NCBI GenBank assembly: GCA_020831625.1
Contig: JAFIGD010000044.1
Location: 1 to 43,595, forward strand
Direction: 5' to 3'
From: Verrucomicrobiota bacterium
Lineage (GTDB): Bacteria > Verrucomicrobiota > Kiritimatiellia > SS1-B-03-39 > UBA6053
DNA: 43,595 bases
Below the pieces are notes generated by a model. It was not told the DNA's origin. It ran no database searches and saw only the letters and a program-made list of their open reading frames with translations. Below are positions 1,782 to 24,861 of this stretch, in pieces. Each line of letters opens with the position of its first letter. The first letter of the stretch is position 1. Position numbers and translations under genes: made by a program.

Positions 1782-3253
1782 CCCTGCGCGGCGGCGTCTA
1801 CTGGTGGCGCGAGGGCCTGCTGGCGTTTGCCTGGCTGCTGCCGCTGCTGGTGCCGTACGGCGCGGGCCTCTGGTGGCTGTACCAGGAGAACGCCCTGCTG
1901 GCATGGATGGGGGCGATGGCCGGAATCTCCCTCATCCTTTGGGGAATCGGTCGCCTCAGCCGGCGGCGGGGCAGCGGCGTGGTGATGCAGGCGACGGATA
2001 TCAATGCGGCGGAGGCGGAACGGCGGGCGCGGGAGGGATTAAGCGAACTCATGGAATCGGTGCGGGCGGAGGATTTGGCCAACACCCGCACGGTGGAGCG
2101 GCTGGTGCGGGAAAGCCTTGTCTGTGTGGCCTCGGCCTGGCATCCGGGCCGCAAACGGGCGGAATTGCGTTTCACGGTTCCGGAGGGCCTGGCCCTGCTC
2201 GAACATCTGGCGGGCCGTCTCCAAATCGCCATCCACGAGGATCTGCCCGCGCTGGAACAGGTGAAAATTTCACACGTGGTGGGCGTGCAGGATCACCTGC
2301 GCCCGGCGCGGTCTCTGTGGAATCTCTATCGCGCGGGACGCTTTCTGTTCAATCCGGTCGGCGCCACCGTGGTGGAACTGCGGCGGGGGGTGCTCCAGGC
2401 CATGACCCCGCTGCTGATGGATTCGATGAAACGCACCGCCGGCGCCCTGTTGGTCCGCGAGGTGGGCGAGGCCGCGATTCTGCTCTACTCCGGCCGCTTG
2501 TCCACCGTGAATCGGGACCACCATCAGCGCATGCGGACCGCGCCGGAGGTGGAGACGGGGCCGCTGCTGGTGATGCTGGCGGGTCAGGCCAATTCCGGCA
2601 AATCCAGTGTGATCAACGCGCTCTCGGGCCGCGACCGGGCGGTCACGCATTCCCTCCCCTGCGCGGAGGGCTTTCAGGCCTACGCCCTGGAGGAGGAGAC
2701 GGCGGGAGAGCTGCTGCTGGTGGATTCGCCCGGCCTTCCCGCGGTTGCAGACAAAACCTGGCTGCGGGAAGTCAGCCGCGCGGATGTGATCCTCTGGGTG
2801 GCGGCCGCGCACCGGGCCGACCGACAGCGGGACGAGGAGGGCATGCGGGCCCTGCACAAGGTGTTTGAGCAGGCGGTGCGCCGCCGCAGACCCCCGATTC
2901 TGGGCGTGTTGACCCATGTGGACCGTCTCGACCCCGCCCGCGAATGGGATCCGCCCTATGATGTCGAGCGGGGCGAACGCCAGAAAGAACAGAACATGCG
3001 GACCGTGCGCGCGGATCTGGCCGAAAAACTCAATCTCTCCCCGGACGCCCTGGTGTGCATGATGACCGAATCCCCGGACACCGCCTGGAACGTCGCCGAA
3101 TTCTGGAAACGACTCTACCAGGAGCTGCCCGCCGCCGGACAAAGCCGCCTCGAACGCCTCATCCACCACCGCTCCCATGTCCGCGGATTGCGCAAAGCGG
3201 CTCGCACCGTGCCCGGAATCGTCCGCCAGGCCCGGCGGCTTCTGAAGAAGTGA
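1778..3253 (+). CDS. Membrane-anchored GTPase (second of a pair)
   Basis: I start this 491-residue protein at the ATG at 1778, which overlaps the previous stop and follows AGGAGG at 1766. Two membrane segments (about 12-35 and 40-58) form an N-terminal hairpin. A long charged region follows, then an Era/TrmE-like G domain: P-loop 269-277 (GQANSGKSS), DSPG at 316-319 and THVD at 379-382 as a G4 variant. The tail is basic (Arg/Lys-rich to residue 491). The arrangement suggests tethering to the inner membrane with the GTPase in the cytoplasm. Together with the preceding GTPase it may form a hetero-oligomeric pair. Function is unknown; a dynamin-like or stress-response role is possible but unsupported by the sequence. 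Confidence 0.8.
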   Translation: MTLRGGVYWWREGLLAFAWLLPLLVPYGAGLWWLYQENALLAWMGAMAGISLILWGIGRLSRRRGSGVVMQATDINAAEAERRAREGLSELMESVRAEDLANTRTVERLVRESLVCVASAWHPGRKRAELRFTVPEGLALLEHLAGRLQIAIHEDLPALEQVKISHVVGVQDHLRPARSLWNLYRAGRFLFNPVGATVVELRRGVLQAMTPLLMDSMKRTAGALLVREVGEAAILLYSGRLSTVNRDHHQRMRTAPEVETGPLLVMLAGQANSGKSSVINALSGRDRAVTHSLPCAEGFQAYALEEETAGELLLVDSPGLPAVADKTWLREVSRADVILWVAAAHRADRQRDEEGMRALHKVFEQAVRRRRPPILGVLTHVDRLDPAREWDPPYDVERGERQKEQNMRTVRADLAEKLNLSPDALVCMMTESPDTAWNVAEFWKRLYQELPAAGQSRLERLIHHRSHVRGLRKAARTVPGIVRQARRLLKK

Positions 3254-3279: not shown

Positions 3280-4038
3280 CTAAACGGCCCGGGCGAGCCA
3301 TGACACAAAGAGCAGGCTGACCGCGATTTCGGTCCATCCGACGTGTTTGGGCGATTTAACCGGCAGAAAAGACCAAACACCCGCGCGCAGGGCCAGAAGA
3401 AGAAACAGAACCACCGCGCCGGGCGGCGCCTCCAGTACCAGGAGGGCGGACGGGATCGCGGCATGCAGGAAGATCATTTCATCGCGGCGGTGGACTCCAC
3501 CGGTATATCTGCGGATTTGACAGCGCACAAACAGGATGGCGGATACACTCTTGAGGGCAAGCAGTCCCGCCAGCAGCCAAGCAAGTCCCCGGGCATGTCC
3601 GCCGGCAATGACGATGGCGGCGGTTGGGCTGGCGAGAGCGATTGCGGCCGCCAGTTCGGGTGCCAGTGTGCGTGTGTGTCCCTGATCCTGCTTCCATAAT
3701 GTCCACATCACAAGCGGCGCGGCGTAAAGAAAGGGCAGGAATGCGGTCGGGGGGACCCACAAAAGCGCGATGAAAAGAAAAATCGCGCCGGTCAGTCCGG
3801 TGATGAACACGAAGCGGCGCACGCGCTGCCCTTCGGGATCGGGATGACGGACACGGCGGGCGCGGAGCAGCCGCAAAGCCGGAGTTCGCAAAAGAAACCC
3901 GCAAAAAGAAACCACCGCAAGACAGAAACCGCCCAAAGTTGGCCCAATCAGAAGACCCAGCAGCAGAGGCTCTGCAATCATTCCCCAGCTTCCATGTTCG
4001 GCGGGAAGCAAAACGCCGCGGGTTTTTTTCGCAGGCAT
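3280..4038 (-). CDS. YwiC-like multi-pass membrane protein
   Basis: The 252-residue protein carries the family hallmark near the N-terminus, PAEHGSWGM at residues 12-20, followed by about seven hydrophobic segments. This matches YwiC-like proteins (Pfam YwiC), whose molecular function is not established. In Bacillus subtilis the family member lies beside nitrate-respiration genes. Here the gene overlaps the stop of an Rrf2 regulator by one base (TGATG), so the two are co-transcribed and the regulator probably controls this gene. A role tied to anaerobic or redox physiology is inference from that pairing. Confidence 0.85.
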   Translation of the reverse strand: MPAKKTRGVLLPAEHGSWGMIAEPLLLGLLIGPTLGGFCLAVVSFCGFLLRTPALRLLRARRVRHPDPEGQRVRRFVFITGLTGAIFLFIALLWVPPTAFLPFLYAAPLVMWTLWKQDQGHTRTLAPELAAAIALASPTAAIVIAGGHARGLAWLLAGLLALKSVSAILFVRCQIRRYTGGVHRRDEMIFLHAAIPSALLVLEAPPGAVVLFLLLALRAGVWSFLPVKSPKHVGWTEIAVSLLFVSWLARAV

Positions 4039-4493
4039 CAGTCTTTCCTCTCCACCCGCAGGGCCTGCAGGAAGGCTTCTTCCGTCTCAATGCGCCCGGC
4101 AATGTCGGCCAGGCTTTCACCGCTGAACATGTTTAAGATACAAGCCCGGGCCGCCTCCCACTGCGAATGAAGGGCACAGGGTGCAAGGCTTGAACACGCG
4201 TCAAATCCAAGAACACAGGAACGCAGGAAATGAGGCCCCTCCAGTGCGTCAATCACCAGAAGCGCATTCAGTTCAGACGCGGGTCTTTGCAGCGCAACCC
4301 CGCCGGCCGCTCCCCGGGAGGAGATGAGGATGTCCGCTTTGCCCAAATCATGGAGAATTTTGGTGAGAAAATGAAAAGGGATGTTCAGCCGATCCGAAAT
4401 TTCCTGAATCGGCGTAAAGGCCCGGTCGGAATCATGAAGAGCAAGATACAGAACCGCCCGGAGACCGTGAAGACAGCGCTTTGATAAAAACAT
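4038..4493 (-). CDS. Rrf2-family transcriptional regulator
   Basis: The product is 151 residues with an N-terminal winged helix (about 10-65, including the SSRGAAGG wing), typical of IscR/NsrR/RirA. Three cysteines, C93, C100 and C106, are spaced C-x6-C-x5-C, close to the iron-sulfur ligand pattern of Rrf2 sensors, so a redox- or NO-sensing [Fe-S] cluster is likely. The start is supported by GGGGGA about 4-11 bases upstream. A perfect 13-bp inverted repeat containing a TATAAT box lies 34-67 bases upstream and is the obvious autoregulatory operator. The gene precedes ywiC in the same transcript. The signal sensed cannot be told from the sequence. Confidence 0.92.
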   Translation of the reverse strand: MFLSKRCLHGLRAVLYLALHDSDRAFTPIQEISDRLNIPFHFLTKILHDLGKADILISSRGAAGGVALQRPASELNALLVIDALEGPHFLRSCVLGFDACSSLAPCALHSQWEAARACILNMFSGESLADIAGRIETEEAFLQALRVERKD

Positions 4494-4526: not shown

Positions 4527-4560
4527 AATTATATTCAGACTTTTTTATCTGAATATAATT
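4527..4560 (-). promoter_or_regulatory. Operator/promoter of the Rrf2-ywiC operon
   Basis: Two perfect 13-bp arms (AATTATATTCAGA at 4527-4539 and its complement at 4548-4560) flank an 8-base T-rich spacer. The gene-proximal arm contains TATAAT on the minus strand (4529-4534), a good -10 box giving a leader of about 30 bases before the ATG at 4493. Rrf2 proteins bind such dyads, so repression by occlusion of the -10 is the simplest reading. No good -35 is visible. Confidence 0.7.
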
Positions 4561-4589: not shown

Positions 4590-4730
4590 TCAATCCAGAT
4601 ACGGCACATCATACTGCCGAATCAGCCGGTCATACGTGATGACTGCGGCACCCACCTGAAAAGCTGTCGCCACAATCAGTCGGTCAAACGGATCCGCGTG
4701 ATGGTCCGGCAAACGGGAGGAGGACTCAAA
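4590..4730 (-). pseudogene. Remnant of a VapC-type PIN toxin (3' end only)
   Basis: The last ~44 codons read RLPDHHADPFDR, then an Ala-rich helix, then VITYDRLIRQYDVP. This is the characteristic C-terminal third of VapC PIN-domain RNases (H-x-D-P-F-D-R and T-x-D motifs). The N-terminal two thirds, with the first catalytic Asp, are absent, and upstream sequence switches directly to the intergenic repeat at 4749-4812. No antitoxin partner is present. It is a decayed toxin gene whose 5' part was lost by deletion or repeat insertion. Confidence 0.75.
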
Positions 4731-4748
4731 ATTAACCTCACAGGAACA

Positions 4749-4812
4749 GAAATTTTCGACCGGATAACAGGATGGCCAGGATCGTGCCTCTTTCATCATG
4801 TTGATCTGAAGT
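4749..4812 (-). repeat. Intergenic repeat, copy 1 (inverted to 5028-5090)
   Basis: Read on the minus strand this contains AGATCAACATGAT, then CATCCTGTTATCC and GTCGAAAA. The same order of words occurs on the plus strand at 5028-5090. The two copies are imperfect and in opposite orientation, and similar strings are common intergenic repeats in many genomes. This copy abuts the broken vapC remnant. Confidence 0.6.
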
Positions 4813-5027
4813 CTCAAGGATCCGCCCTTTATTAGATTTTGCCTTTTTCTTTAGAAAGTAAAGAAGCTGTCCTGCATGTATACCAAGGTTTTCCGAGGTT
4901 TCTCAGGTGCTCGTTCGTCCATCTTGGCGATACAAAAGGCATTATGCAAATTTTAAACTCAAGTCAGCCGATCAGCAAACAAAATATCCGCACCCAAGGC
5001 CGACATATTTCCAGTAATGTTTTTTAG
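4813..5027. other. Spacer without recognised genes
   Basis: This AT-rich stretch lies between the two inverted repeat copies. Short open frames on both strands have no recognisable protein character and no ribosome binding sites. I see no tRNA fold or terminator. Confidence 0.5.
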
Positions 5028-7921: not shown

Positions 7922-9097
7922 ATGGCGTTTTTAGAGTTTCAGAACATCAGCAAAACCTTTGACGGCATTCCGGCCGTTGACGATGCCAGCCTGGAAATCC
8001 GGAAAGGGGAGATTTTTTCGCTGCTGGGTCCAAGCGGCTGCGGGAAAACGACCCTGCTGAGGATGTGCGCCGGGTTTGAGCGGCCCAACGCGGGTCGCAT
8101 CATTCTGAACGGCACGGACATAACCGATCTGCCGCCAAACGAGCGCAGGGTGAACACCATTTTTCAGAGCTACGCCCTGTTTCCCCACCTGACAATATTT
8201 GAAAACATCGCCTTCGGTCTGCGCGTGGCCCGAAAACCGGACGTGCAGGTGCGTGAAGAGGTGGAGAAGATGCTTCAGATCATGCAGCTCAAGGGCCACG
8301 AACAGAAAAAGCCGCATCAGATCAGCGGCGGACAAAAACAGCGGGTGGCCATCGCCCGCGCCCTGGCCAACAAACCTGAAATCCTGCTGCTCGACGAGCC
8401 CCTGGCGGCACTGGATCTCAAGTTGCGCCAGCGGATGCTGGTGGAGCTCGACGCGATCCACGACGAAGTGGGCATCACCTTTATCATGGTCACCCACGAT
8501 CAGACCGAGGCCATGGGCATCAGCGACCGCATCGCGGTGATGAACCGCGGAAAAATTCAGCAGGTCGGCCGCCCCGCCGAAATATACGAGACCCCGCTGA
8601 CCTCTTTCGTGGCCGCCTTTATCGGGGACACCAACTTTTTTGTGGGTCAGGTCGCCCCGGCCGAGGATGCCGACTACTGCACCCTGCGGATTGAGGGGTT
8701 CGATCCGGTGCTCTGCTTTAATGACAAAAAGCTTCAGCCCGGTCAGACCGCCTATGTCAGTGTCCGCCCCGAAAAATTCCGGATCCACACCGAGGTGCCG
8801 GAAGGCCATAGCCGCCTGAATGTCTTGCGGGGTAAAGTGACCGATGTGATCTATGAAGGCGGGCACACCGACTACTGGGTGGACGGCCCCGGCGGCTACC
8901 GCATTTCCGTGACCCGCTCCCACCAGCGCTTCGGCCTGGATGAAGCCCCCATCACCTGGGGGGCGGATGTGTGGCTGTCCTGGCACGCGGACGACGGCTA
9001 TATGCTGGAACAATACCGTGAGGACGACGAGGGTCTCCTGCGTCTTCCCTCCCCGGCGGATGCATCGCTGCTTACGGAGCTGCCCGATGAAAGCTGA
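7922..9097 (+). CDS. potA: Spermidine/putrescine ABC transporter ATPase PotA
   Basis: The 391-residue ATPase has Walker A GPSGCGKT (36-43), a signature ISGGQKQR (134-141), Walker B ILLLDEP (154-160) and the H-loop histidine 192. The C-terminal ~150 residues form a TOBE-type regulatory domain, as in PotA/MalK proteins. It drives polyamine import with the PotBC permeases and the PotD binding protein encoded immediately downstream. The next gene starts inside its last codons (11-base overlap). Substrate assignment rests on family similarity plus the carboxynorspermidine synthase upstream. Confidence 0.93.
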   Translation: MAFLEFQNISKTFDGIPAVDDASLEIRKGEIFSLLGPSGCGKTTLLRMCAGFERPNAGRIILNGTDITDLPPNERRVNTIFQSYALFPHLTIFENIAFGLRVARKPDVQVREEVEKMLQIMQLKGHEQKKPHQISGGQKQRVAIARALANKPEILLLDEPLAALDLKLRQRMLVELDAIHDEVGITFIMVTHDQTEAMGISDRIAVMNRGKIQQVGRPAEIYETPLTSFVAAFIGDTNFFVGQVAPAEDADYCTLRIEGFDPVLCFNDKKLQPGQTAYVSVRPEKFRIHTEVPEGHSRLNVLRGKVTDVIYEGGHTDYWVDGPGGYRISVTRSHQRFGLDEAPITWGADVWLSWHADDGYMLEQYREDDEGLLRLPSPADASLLTELPDES

Positions 9098-10717: not shown

Positions 10718-11751
10718 AATTCCGCCTCCTGAACCTCGCCGCCGCGCTCATGCTGATCCTCGGCTTCACCGCCTGTGGGAGCCGCAAACCCGTTCTCCGC
10801 ATCTACAACTGGGCCGAATACCTCTCCGATGAGGTGATCGAAGCGTTCGAAAAAGAATTCAACTGCCGGGTGATCGTCGATGTATTCGATTCCAACGAAG
10901 CCATGTACGCCAAACTCAAAGCCGGCGGCGGCGGATACGACATCGTGGTTCCCAGCAGCTATCAGGTTGTGCGCATGGCCCGCGAAGGCATGCTCCTCGA
11001 ACTGGATCACAGTCAGCTCCCCAATCTCGTCCATCTCGACCCGATCGCCGTAAAATTCACCCAGGACCCGGAACACCGTTACAGCGTGCCCTATCTCATC
11101 ACCTCCGCTGTCATCGGCTACCGCGCCGACCGCATGGATACCGGCCCCGACTCCTGGGCCGTGTTTGCCGACGCGTCGCTCCGCGGACGCATGACCCTGC
11201 TCAACGACCAGCGGGAGACCCTGGGTGCCGCCCTTAAATTTCTCGGGTTCAGTCTCAACACCGTCAACCCTGAAGAAATCAACGCCGCCCGCGATTTACT
11301 CATCGAATGGAAAGCCAATCTCGCCAAATTCGAATCCGAACAATTCAAAAACGGTCTCATGTCCGCCGAATTTCTGGTGGTTCACGGATACAGCAGCGAC
11401 CTCCTGCAAGCCATGGAGGAGGACGAAAATATTTCCATCGCCCTCCCCAAAGAAGGCCTCTCAATCGCGCTCGACGATTTGGTGATCCTTGCCGACGCCC
11501 CCAATCCACAACTCGCGCACGCCTTCATTAACTTCATGCACCGCCCGGAAGTCGCAGCGGAAAACATGGAATGGGTCATGGCCATGTCCCCCAATCTGCC
11601 CGCATATGCCTTGCTTGACGACGCGTTCAAGGCCGACGAGCGCATTTTCTTCAGCGAGGAGATTTTCGCCAAATCCGAAACCATTTTCGACCTTGGCGAA
11701 AACGACCAGCTCTACATTAACGCCTGGAATGAAGTCAAAACCGCGCCCTGA
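10714..11751 (+). CDS. potD: Polyamine-binding periplasmic (lipo)protein PotD
   Basis: The start is the ATG at 10714, overlapping the potC stop. The 345-residue product begins with a signal peptide ending in FTACGS; the cysteine suggests lipoprotein processing, although the residue at -3 is not ideal. The mature protein opens with RIYNWAEYLSDEVIEAFEKEF, the hallmark start of PotD/PotF solute-binding proteins. VPYLITSAVIGY and the LDDLVILADAPNP region match the family. It delivers spermidine or putrescine to PotBC. It is the last gene of the operon, followed by an imperfect hairpin region. Which polyamine it binds cannot be told from the sequence. Confidence 0.93.
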   Translation: MKFRLLNLAAALMLILGFTACGSRKPVLRIYNWAEYLSDEVIEAFEKEFNCRVIVDVFDSNEAMYAKLKAGGGGYDIVVPSSYQVVRMAREGMLLELDHSQLPNLVHLDPIAVKFTQDPEHRYSVPYLITSAVIGYRADRMDTGPDSWAVFADASLRGRMTLLNDQRETLGAALKFLGFSLNTVNPEEINAARDLLIEWKANLAKFESEQFKNGLMSAEFLVVHGYSSDLLQAMEEDENISIALPKEGLSIALDDLVILADAPNPQLAHAFINFMHRPEVAAENMEWVMAMSPNLPAYALLDDAFKADERIFFSEEIFAKSETIFDLGENDQLYINAWNEVKTAP

Positions 11752-18323: not shown

Positions 18324-18357
18324 ATTCCATATATAAAATATATTTTATATATGGAAT
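18324..18357. repeat. Perfect 34-nt AT palindrome
   Basis: The arms ATTCCATATATAAAATA and TATTTTATATATGGAAT are exact complements with no spacer, so the site could extrude a cruciform. On the minus strand the remnant of a toxin reading frame (ATG at 18383) runs into the palindrome and stops within it, making this a likely rearrangement junction. It could also have been a dyad operator or a hairpin end of lost DNA. Confidence 0.85.
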
Positions 18358-18620: not shown

Positions 18621-20162
18621 ATGGCCAACCATGCAAAAATGGATATAATCACAACGATACAAGCCCTATACGAAAAAGAATGGACCCAGCGGCGGATTGC
18701 CCGCGAGTTGGGCATCCACCGCCGCACCGTTCGGCGGTATGTCGAGGAACTCCTTGCCGAGGAGTCAAAAGGTACCAACCCGCCCCCCGGCGATTCGGAG
18801 GGTGGTTCTTCAAAAGGTACCAAACCCGCCCCCCGGGATCTGTCGGGTCCGCCCAGCAGTTGCCTTCCTTGGCGGAAGTTCATCGAAGACGCCTTGGAGC
18901 AGGGTCTGAGTGCCAAGCGGATTCATCAGGATCTCCGCGGGCATTCGGATTTCCAGGGCTCCTATGACGCGGTGAAGCGCTTCGTTCGCCGTCTGCGGGT
19001 GGCGGAACCCAAGCGATTCGAGCGCGTGGAGGTGCCCCCGGGAATCGAGGCGCAGGTGGACTTCGGGACCGGCAACTGGGTGGAGGAGCCCGGCGGCAAA
19101 AAACGACGCACCCATGTTTTCCGCGTGGTGCTGGGCAACTCCCGCAAGGGATATTGCGAGGCCGTGTTCCACCAGGATACCGAGACCTTTCTGCGCTGTC
19201 TGGAAAACGCGTTCCAGGCCCTTGGCGGCGTGCCGGAAACCCTGGTGCCCGACAACCTGAAGGCGGCCATCCCCAAGGCGGACTGGTACGATCCGGAGGT
19301 GCATCCCAAGCTGCGAGACTTCGCGGAGTATTACGGGGTGGCGATCCTGCCGACCAAGCCCTACCATCCCCACCACAAGGGAAAGGTGGAGCGGGGTGTG
19401 GGATACGTGAAAGACAATGCGTTGAAGGGCAGGATCTTCCGTTCACTCGCCGAACTCAACGCCCACTTGCGGGACTGGGAGACGCACGTGGCCGACCAAC
19501 GCATCCACGGGACCACTCGCAAACAGGTGGGCGCGCAGTTCCGGGAGGTGGAGGCGCCCGCGCTCCAGCCGTTGCCTCCCATGCCGTTCCCGGCCTACGA
19601 GGAGGGCGAGCGGTCCGTGCACCGGGACGGCTATGTCGAGGTGAAAAAGGCCTATTATCAGGCTCCCCCGGAATACGTGGGGCGCACCGTGTGGGTGCGC
19701 TGGGATGCCCGCACCGTGCGGCTGTTCAACCACCGCATGGAGGAGGTCCGGGTACACGCGCGGGTGGAGCCGGGGAAGTTCGCCTCCACGCCGGGCGCGA
19801 AGAGCCCCTACCAGGCGACCCGATCCTGCGCCCATTTGATCAAGTCGGCCGGGAAGGTGGGGCACTGGTGCGGCGTCTGGGCCGAAAAGCTCGTGTCCCA
19901 AAGAGGCGCCGAAGCCTACCGCCCCCTGCTCGGCTTTCAGAGCCTGACCCGCAAGCATCCCCCCGAAGACCTGAACCGGGCCTGTGAAAAGGCCCTGGCA
20001 TACGGAGCAACGCGCCTCAGGGACCTCCGCCGAATCATGGAGCAAGGAGCCGATCCCCAGCAGGAACTCGCCTTCCTCCAGGAACACCCTCTCATCCGCG
20101 ACCTGACCGAATATCAGGTCCACTTCACCCAACCCAACCCGAAAGGAACAAACCCATGCTGA
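18621..20162 (+). CDS. istA: IS21-family transposase IstA
   Basis: The 513-residue transposase has an N-terminal helix-turn-helix (about 18-45, WTQRRIARELGIHRRTVRRY) and an rve-type DDE catalytic core with Asp147 (QVDFG), Asp211 (VPDNLKAAI) and Glu257 (HKGKVERGVGYVKDN). The C-terminal beta-barrel region is KAYYQAPPEYVGRTVWVRW. A linker at residues 49-72 contains a duplicated SKGTNPPP/SKGTKPAP peptide, encoded by a direct DNA repeat at 18765 and 18809. It overlaps istB by seven bases. All catalytic residues are intact, so it is potentially active. Confidence 0.96.
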   Translation: MANHAKMDIITTIQALYEKEWTQRRIARELGIHRRTVRRYVEELLAEESKGTNPPPGDSEGGSSKGTKPAPRDLSGPPSSCLPWRKFIEDALEQGLSAKRIHQDLRGHSDFQGSYDAVKRFVRRLRVAEPKRFERVEVPPGIEAQVDFGTGNWVEEPGGKKRRTHVFRVVLGNSRKGYCEAVFHQDTETFLRCLENAFQALGGVPETLVPDNLKAAIPKADWYDPEVHPKLRDFAEYYGVAILPTKPYHPHHKGKVERGVGYVKDNALKGRIFRSLAELNAHLRDWETHVADQRIHGTTRKQVGAQFREVEAPALQPLPPMPFPAYEEGERSVHRDGYVEVKKAYYQAPPEYVGRTVWVRWDARTVRLFNHRMEEVRVHARVEPGKFASTPGAKSPYQATRSCAHLIKSAGKVGHWCGVWAEKLVSQRGAEAYRPLLGFQSLTRKHPPEDLNRACEKALAYGATRLRDLRRIMEQGADPQQELAFLQEHPLIRDLTEYQVHFTQPNPKGTNPC

Positions 20163-20893
20163 CACCACAGCTCGAGCACAAACTCACCCGCCTCCGCCTC
20201 GGAGGTCTCAAACACACCCTGCCCATCCGACTCCAGGAAGCCGCGGCCTCCCAGCTCAGCCATCTGGAGTTCCTGGAGCTGATCCTCCAGGACGAGGAAC
20301 TGGTCCGCAAGGACCGCAAACGCGAACGCCGGGTCAAAGCCGCCGGCTTCCGCGAAATCCGACGCTTGGACGGCTTCGACTGGAGCTTCAACCCGCAAAT
20401 CGACCGCAAGGCCATCTACCAACTGGCCGCCGGACGATACCTCGCCGAGGGCCGCGACGTGCTCATGGTCGGCCCGCCCGGCGTTGGAAAAAGCCATCTC
20501 GCACAGGCGCTCGGCTACGAGGCCATCCTGCAAGGCAAGACCGTCAAATACCGCTCCATCTTCGATCTGGTGGGCGACCTCAACGAGGCCGGGGCCCTGC
20601 AGGAGAGCGCCAAACGCATCGCCACCTACCTCAAGCCCGATCTGCTGATCATCGACGACATGGGCATCAAGCATCTGCCCCCCAACGCCGGAGAGCACCT
20701 CTTCGAAGTGGTGATGCGACGCTACGAGCTGCGCTCCACCCTGATGACCTCCAACCGGCCCATCGAAGAATGGGGCAAACTCATCGGCGACGTGCCCGCC
20801 GCCGGGGCCATCCTTGACCGCTTCCTGCACCACGCCGAGATCCTCGAAATGCCAGGACGAAGCTACCGGCTCAAAGACAGGAGAGGGAAATGA
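20156..20893 (+). CDS. istB: IS21-family helper ATPase IstB
   Basis: The 245-residue AAA+ protein has Walker A GPPGVGKS at 106-113, Walker B LLIIDDMG at 163-170 and the IstB signature region MTSNRPIEEWGKLIGDVPAAGAILDR. IstB decamers remodel target DNA and recruit IstA, stimulating transposition. It is DnaC/DnaA-related. The start lies within the end of istA, preceded by GAAAGGA. Intact, ending 134 bases before the right inverted repeat. Confidence 0.96.
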   Translation: MLTPQLEHKLTRLRLGGLKHTLPIRLQEAAASQLSHLEFLELILQDEELVRKDRKRERRVKAAGFREIRRLDGFDWSFNPQIDRKAIYQLAAGRYLAEGRDVLMVGPPGVGKSHLAQALGYEAILQGKTVKYRSIFDLVGDLNEAGALQESAKRIATYLKPDLLIIDDMGIKHLPPNAGEHLFEVVMRRYELRSTLMTSNRPIEEWGKLIGDVPAAGAILDRFLHHAEILEMPGRSYRLKDRRGK

Positions 20894-24828: not shown

Positions 24829-24861
24829 AAAAACGAGCGGGATTTCTCCCGCTCGTTTTAA
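24829..24861 (-). terminator. Rho-independent terminator of the DUF4168 gene
   Basis: AAAACGAGCGGGA pairs perfectly with TCCCGCTCGTTTT around a TTTC loop. On the minus strand the stem is followed by a T-run (TTTTTTGG), and it begins about 21 bases after the stop of the secreted protein gene. The flanking A/T tracts make it potentially bidirectional. Confidence 0.9.

Follow-up and report, generated by a model that had tools for sequence, protein, structure and literature searches.

Introduction

NsrR is a nitric oxide (NO)-sensing repressor of the Rrf2 family with three conserved cysteines (PMC1274295; PMC4432287; PMC5411485). Its targets in other bacteria include nirK, nnrS and hcp, and its published motif is gATGyAT-N5-ATrCATc (PMC1274295). 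The Streptomyces protein has Cys93, Cys99, and Cys105, with Asp8 as the fourth ligand of the cluster, and the ligands of IscR are Cys92, Cys98, Cys104, and His107 (PMC5411485). This histidine of IscR is described as not conserved in NsrR (PMC4432287). Beyond the classical NsrR lineages, Rrf2 genes have also been found beside clade II nosZ clusters and denitrification genes (PMC6264515).

Here we analyzed a stretch of 43,595 nucleotides from a Verrucomicrobiota bacterium (hereafter the window; genomes and loci are given as G and L numbers), in which an Rrf2-family regulator is encoded together with the membrane protein YwiC. The group of regulators to which the window protein belongs resembles NsrR in its Rrf2 fold and three conserved cysteines, and in having operator-motif sites in front of nirK (six of the nine nirK loci), nnrS and nrfH, in relatives but not in its own genome. 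It differs from NsrR in the spacing of the cysteines (C-x6-C-x5-C, against Cys93, Cys99, and Cys105), in its motif (approximately TTnAGAy-N6-rTCTnAA, which does not correspond to the NsrR operator), in lacking an aspartate at position 8, where the Streptomyces protein has its fourth ligand, and in its score of 43.6 bits with the NsrR equivalog model NF008240 (cut-off 182). Because of the model score, the operator and the missing Asp8 we do not class the window protein as NsrR. With IscR it shares the Cys3-His set, present as C-x6-C-x5-C-x2-H in 23 of the 24 complete members of the group, whereas the spacings in IscR are x5, x5, and x2; the IscR models TIGR02010 and NF008110 gave 55.1 and 34.6 bits (cut-offs 207.55 and 275), and, unlike in IscR, the motif sites of the group precede nitrite and NO genes. 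The Rrf2 regulators of PMC6264515 are similar, by their description, in that they adjoin denitrification genes. Judged by sequence, the regulator would thus work like NsrR with ligands that look like those of IscR.

No paper on this group of regulators or on the function of YwiC was found in the open-licence literature. For a little-studied bacterial group this would provide a regulator of the nitrite/NO type whose operator can be read, making targets predictable genome by genome. Wiring that resembles NsrR's but uses another operator, and probably another fourth ligand of the cluster, bears on the origin of NO sensing in the Rrf2 family.

The Rrf2-ywiC Operon and Its Regulator

The genes and upstream elements of the operon are the following:

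3280–4038, − strand: ywiC, membrane protein of 252 aa (PF14256, E 4e-21)
4038–4493, − strand: Rrf2-family regulator of 151 aa with Cys93, Cys100, Cys106, and His109 (PF02082, E 3.7e-25)
4527–4560, no strand: perfect dyad, proposed Rrf2 operator (from the sequence; single copy in the genome)
4528–4533, − strand: TATAAT, the −10 box of an earlier note on this DNA (from the sequence)
4531–4556, − strand: 26-nt match to the operator motif, which was trained on the upstream regions of 23 relatives without the window
4552–4557, − strand: TATATT, candidate −10 box (from comparison with relatives, where the box abuts the motif)

The regulator belongs to the Rrf2 superfamily, with 89 bits for PF02082 (cut-off 30) and 90.3 bits for TIGR00738 (cut-off 73.3), and its partner is a YwiC-like protein (PF14256, 76 bits, cut-off 25). 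The three cysteines described in the earlier note are present as C93-x6-C100-x5-C106, followed after two residues by His109. The same note rightly named YwiC as the only other product of the operon: ywiC is the sole gene downstream of the regulator, and a convergent + strand ORF beyond it ends at position 3253. The Rrf2 stop codon and the ywiC start codon overlap as TGATG, suggesting that their translation is coupled.

Relatives of the regulator were collected by searching 58 related genomes with the window protein, aligning 11 proteins and running the resulting profile against 345 genomes of the class. This yielded 25 places scoring at least 131 bits; the next-best scores were 120.7 bits, for a second and incomplete copy in G023, and 110.6 bits. 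The member in G001 is a fragment, and the remaining 24 are complete. The columns of Cys93, Cys100, and Cys106 hold cysteine in all 24 of these, His109 is found in 23, and none has an aspartate at position 8. In a tree the window protein clusters with those of G003, G007, G008, and G010 (support 99/99), the last three of which carry a nirK cluster. The 24 members do not fall cleanly on one side of any branch, and two long-branch paralogues stand, with weak support, beside G099. In G001, which is of the same genus as the window, the regulator is reduced to a C-terminal fragment (L090, 6746–6964) near moaA, and ywiC is located elsewhere, without an operator.

A Perfect Dyad in the Promoter Region

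The perfect 13-bp dyad that had been reported upstream of the Rrf2 gene was recovered in full. Its arms (4527–4539 and 4548–4560) are complementary at 13 of 13 positions and enclose an 8-nt loop, giving 34 bases in total, and it lies 33 nt from the gene on the upstream side. In the genome of 4,885,981 bases (4.89 Mb) it has a single copy, allowing up to three mismatches over 20 arm bases, which disposes of the concern that the dyad might recur as a repeat at many unrelated sites.

The earlier note had the dyad overlapping the −10 box of the operon and took this box to be TATAAT, which does occur within the dyad on the − strand (4533 to 4528). The overlap holds for either candidate, as TATATT also falls inside the dyad, in the other arm (4557 to 4552); judged against the relatives, it may be TATATT instead that serves as the −10 box. 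A promoter consensus scan of the dyad region returned no promoter and no good −35 hexamer for either box, and TTGAC is absent from the 130 nt upstream of the window Rrf2 gene.

A Proposed Operator Motif Shared With Relatives

The pattern AGA-N8-TCT was first noticed in the window, G007, and G010, after which all 24 upstream regions were read. Of the 23 relatives, 10 have it within 130 nt of the start, compared to 193 of 9600 stretches drawn at random from these loci (P about 1e-11 on the assumption that the regions are independent, which the close relatives G007, G008, and G010, and likewise G089 and G091, are not of one another). Leaving out G007 and G010, where it was first seen, the pattern is found in 8 of 21.

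The upstream regions of the 23 relatives, 16 of which gave a site, yielded the palindromic consensus given above. The dyad, although excluded from training, was the top match to this motif in the window, at 29.3 bits against 12.3 bits for the next; the maximum over 200 shuffled windows was 24.4 bits. No motif site was found in the upstream regions of 7 of the 23 relatives, including G003 of the same genus, and the sites of the relatives are mostly imperfect dyads. TTGAC with a −10-like box 16–18 nt downstream, a loose pattern, was observed in 11 of the 24 upstream regions, the boxes of G008 and G010 being poor. In several relatives the −10-like box abuts the motif, an arrangement as repression would want it.

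Motif Sites at Nitrite and NO Genes of Relatives

In 249.6 kb of sequence around the 24 other members (G001 fragment included) we found 36 motif sites of at least 19 bits, compared to one in 390.6 kb of control loci. Fourteen lie at the regulator's own start, i.e., in the training region, 15 lie near labeled genes and seven are unlabeled. Genes were labeled by family assignment and, for other members, by phmmer searches with the proteins so assigned. NirK was identified by a TIGR02376 match above the cut-off.

Sites precede nirK at six of the nine nirK loci (L082, L083, L084, L087, L125, and L128); at the other three (L085, L089, and L134) there is no site of at least 19 bits before nirK. No nirK was found within 4.2 kb in 15 of the 24 regulator neighborhoods. 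In L087 a further site lies before a cytochrome P450 gene, L091 and L132 have sites before hemerythrin genes, and in L124 one site precedes nrfH and two precede nnrS (31 and 152 nt off). Apart from the L124 site at 152 nt, the centers of the sites at labeled genes are 10–51 nt from the approximate start.

In L082, L083, and L084, nnrS and a P450 gene are divergent, and a single motif site in the interval is shared by both (11529–11554, 3751–3776, and 8563–8588, respectively). The P450 may have a part in NO handling. L091 and L124 have Prismane genes close to the regulator. As no 19-bit site was found directly before these genes, control of hcp is not claimed.

The association of the group with nitrite and NO genes sharpens the redox-sensing circuit proposed in the earlier note. 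An operator over the promoter is backed by the motif of the relatives, and the sensing is probably of NO or nitrite.

Search for Further Sites in the Same Genome

A genome-wide search for a regulon, as suggested in the earlier note, was performed with patterns, and motif scoring was applied to the places found (two of the 12 below are without a locus). With one mismatch allowed, a degenerate pattern gave seven places, against five for its reversed control, and TTCAGA-N8-TCTGAA gave 12 against two. The best-scoring place besides the dyad (L138, 23.2 bits) is inside a short-chain dehydrogenase frame, and three others are likewise inside frames: L139 (20.4 bits; a short, doubtful frame), L143 (19.6 bits; a long one) and L011, an exact TTCAGA-N8-TCTGAA of 13.3 bits. 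L140 (19.7 bits) lies between genes, ahead of a 378-aa frame, and remains a candidate. The pattern searches were convincing for the dyad alone and gave no regulon beyond the ywiC operon.

Searches for nirK and nnrS in this genome gave no match; neither had a positive control, so that absence is not shown. The genome does contain nrfH, as well as an nrfA match whose aligned part includes two stops; 4.3 kb of this locus hold no motif site. Going by these searches, the circuit here seems reduced to the regulator itself and ywiC.

Distribution, Neighbors and Fold of YwiC

ywiC is rare in the class, with four clear genomes and one weak match containing a stop among 345. Among the four, only the genome of the window has the Rrf2 gene beside ywiC, and the flanks of 23 ywiC loci from other genomes contain no Rrf2 resembling the window protein. 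A conserved Rrf2-ywiC pairing is therefore ruled out by these four genomes and 23 loci.

A query set of nitrite and NO genes was searched over the 23 loci (346.6 kb). Nitrite reductases were found in four of them and nothing from the set in the other 19; control loci (175.6 kb) gave no match with the same set. In L029 (contig of G007, Kiritimatiellota) nrfHA is followed directly by ywiC, in L050 (Planctomycetota) ywiC is followed directly by nrfHA, and in L045 (Anaerolineae, Chloroflexota) ywiC directly follows nirK, the multicopper oxidase of this locus being NirK, with a Crp-type regulator further upstream. In L030 (contig of G005) nrfHA is 1.9 kb from ywiC on the other strand. A fifth such context is the window itself, where ywiC stands behind a regulator of the nitrite type. 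The neighborhoods, which tie YwiC to nitrite reduction in three phyla, suggest that it probably serves this process. The earlier expectation that the circuit could reveal the role of YwiC thus gains support from its neighbors in three of the 23 loci, and at 1.9 kb in a fourth, and not from the pairing with Rrf2. For other phyla, ywiC neighbors were scanned by Pfam in 20 of 126 cases, and a search for ywiC on plasmids gave no match. In Bacillus subtilis, ywiC is located near the nar genes. A set of VTC-domain, DUF4956, and HlyD-like genes precedes ywiC in L021 of G001, and such a set adjoins the regulator in L127; the HlyD-like gene is also present in L136.

Structural modeling of YwiC from a 23-sequence alignment gave a helical protein (mean pLDDT 91.8). 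The top structural matches of the model are UbiA homologs (4od4, probability 1.00, E 0.034), and Foldseek returned no match at E 0.001 or better. Superposition on 4tq4 gave a Z of 12.2 (rmsd 5.2, 232 aligned residues), a value that helical bundles reach by chance, and soluble prenyl synthases follow closely (Z 10–11). Profile comparison was weak, at 18% with 28 UbiA proteins, 1.1% with one subgroup and 0.1–0.6% with controls. UbiA prenyltransferases carry two Asp-rich metal-binding motifs. YwiC, although like these enzymes in the model, differs from them in lacking such motifs and has only three isolated aspartates (67, 118, and 186). The UbiA-like fold is thus a lead from modeling, and offers a fold to test.

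Proposed Mechanism and Alternatives

The best explanation, which we hold to be likely on the sequence comparisons above, is an autoregulated repressor of the Fe-S type that controls Rrf2-ywiC in answer to NO or nitrite, with the dyad as its predicted operator. Binding, repression, the Fe-S cluster, the signal and the role of YwiC are what we infer. The regulator would be a dimer with an Fe-S cluster, probably held by Cys93, Cys100, Cys106, and His109, that occupies both half-sites across the promoter and represses the two genes of its own operon. NO, or nitrite by way of NO, would damage the cluster and release the dimer from the dyad, and regulator and YwiC would then be made together through coupled translation. 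YwiC may be an accessory membrane protein in nitrite reduction or in tolerance of NO. Regulators of this kind would act in relatives at the sites before nirK, nrfH, nnrS, P450, and hemerythrin genes, and in this genome the clear site would be limited to the ywiC operon. A wider version, put forward tentatively and a little short of probable, is that these proteins form a separate Fe-S regulator subfamily of the Kiritimatiellota class, with an IscR-like Cys3-His set, its own operator and targets of the NsrR kind, shrunk here to one target, and that YwiC has a UbiA fold without the catalytic aspartates and works, in three phyla or more, with a dissimilatory nitrite reductase, either NrfHA or NirK.

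The same operator and repressor could instead answer to oxidative stress or to the status of iron or Fe-S, in the manner of IscR and RirA, the nitrite genes of the relatives lying downstream of such a signal. We consider this unlikely. In its favor, IscR has the same Cys3-His set, with a His107 that is reported as not conserved in NsrR (PMC4432287), and the IscR model outscores the NsrR model (55.1 against 43.6 bits, both far under their cut-offs), but the sites of the relatives precede nirK, nrfH, nnrS, and hemerythrin genes, and another Rrf2 of this genome (L008) precedes what appears, by eye, to be a SUF cluster.

That the dyad is a transcription terminator or RNA hairpin instead of a DNA operator is very improbable. 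It does fold stably on both strands (−17.2 and −13.6 kcal/mol; z −6.0 and −4.9), yet a terminator search of the region found none, and its core matches a DNA motif of the relatives whose sites are mostly not perfect dyads. We give marginally less credence still to a chance palindrome or the remnant of a mobile element. Dinucleotide shuffling of the window produced at least one perfect repeat of this size in 5 of 200 trials, so that, judged window-wide, the presence of the dyad is only moderately surprising; shuffling of the local 106 nt alone (34% GC) produced none in 5000 trials. Against an origin by chance or from a mobile element stand its single copy, its position at the promoter of the regulator and its top rank with a motif learned elsewhere.

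Other Features of the Window

Inverted repeats whose arms pair perfectly over 13 nt or more, with loops of 3–20 nt, are found at three distinct places of the window: at 4527 (the dyad), at about 18324–18355 and at 24830–24859. A C-terminal remnant of a PIN-domain protein (4590–4835, − strand) ends at 4590, just upstream of the dyad, and scores 23.2 bits with PF01850, below the cut-off of 23.6. Two adjoining frames at 18621–20893 on the + strand have, by eye, the appearance of an IS21-type transposase pair.
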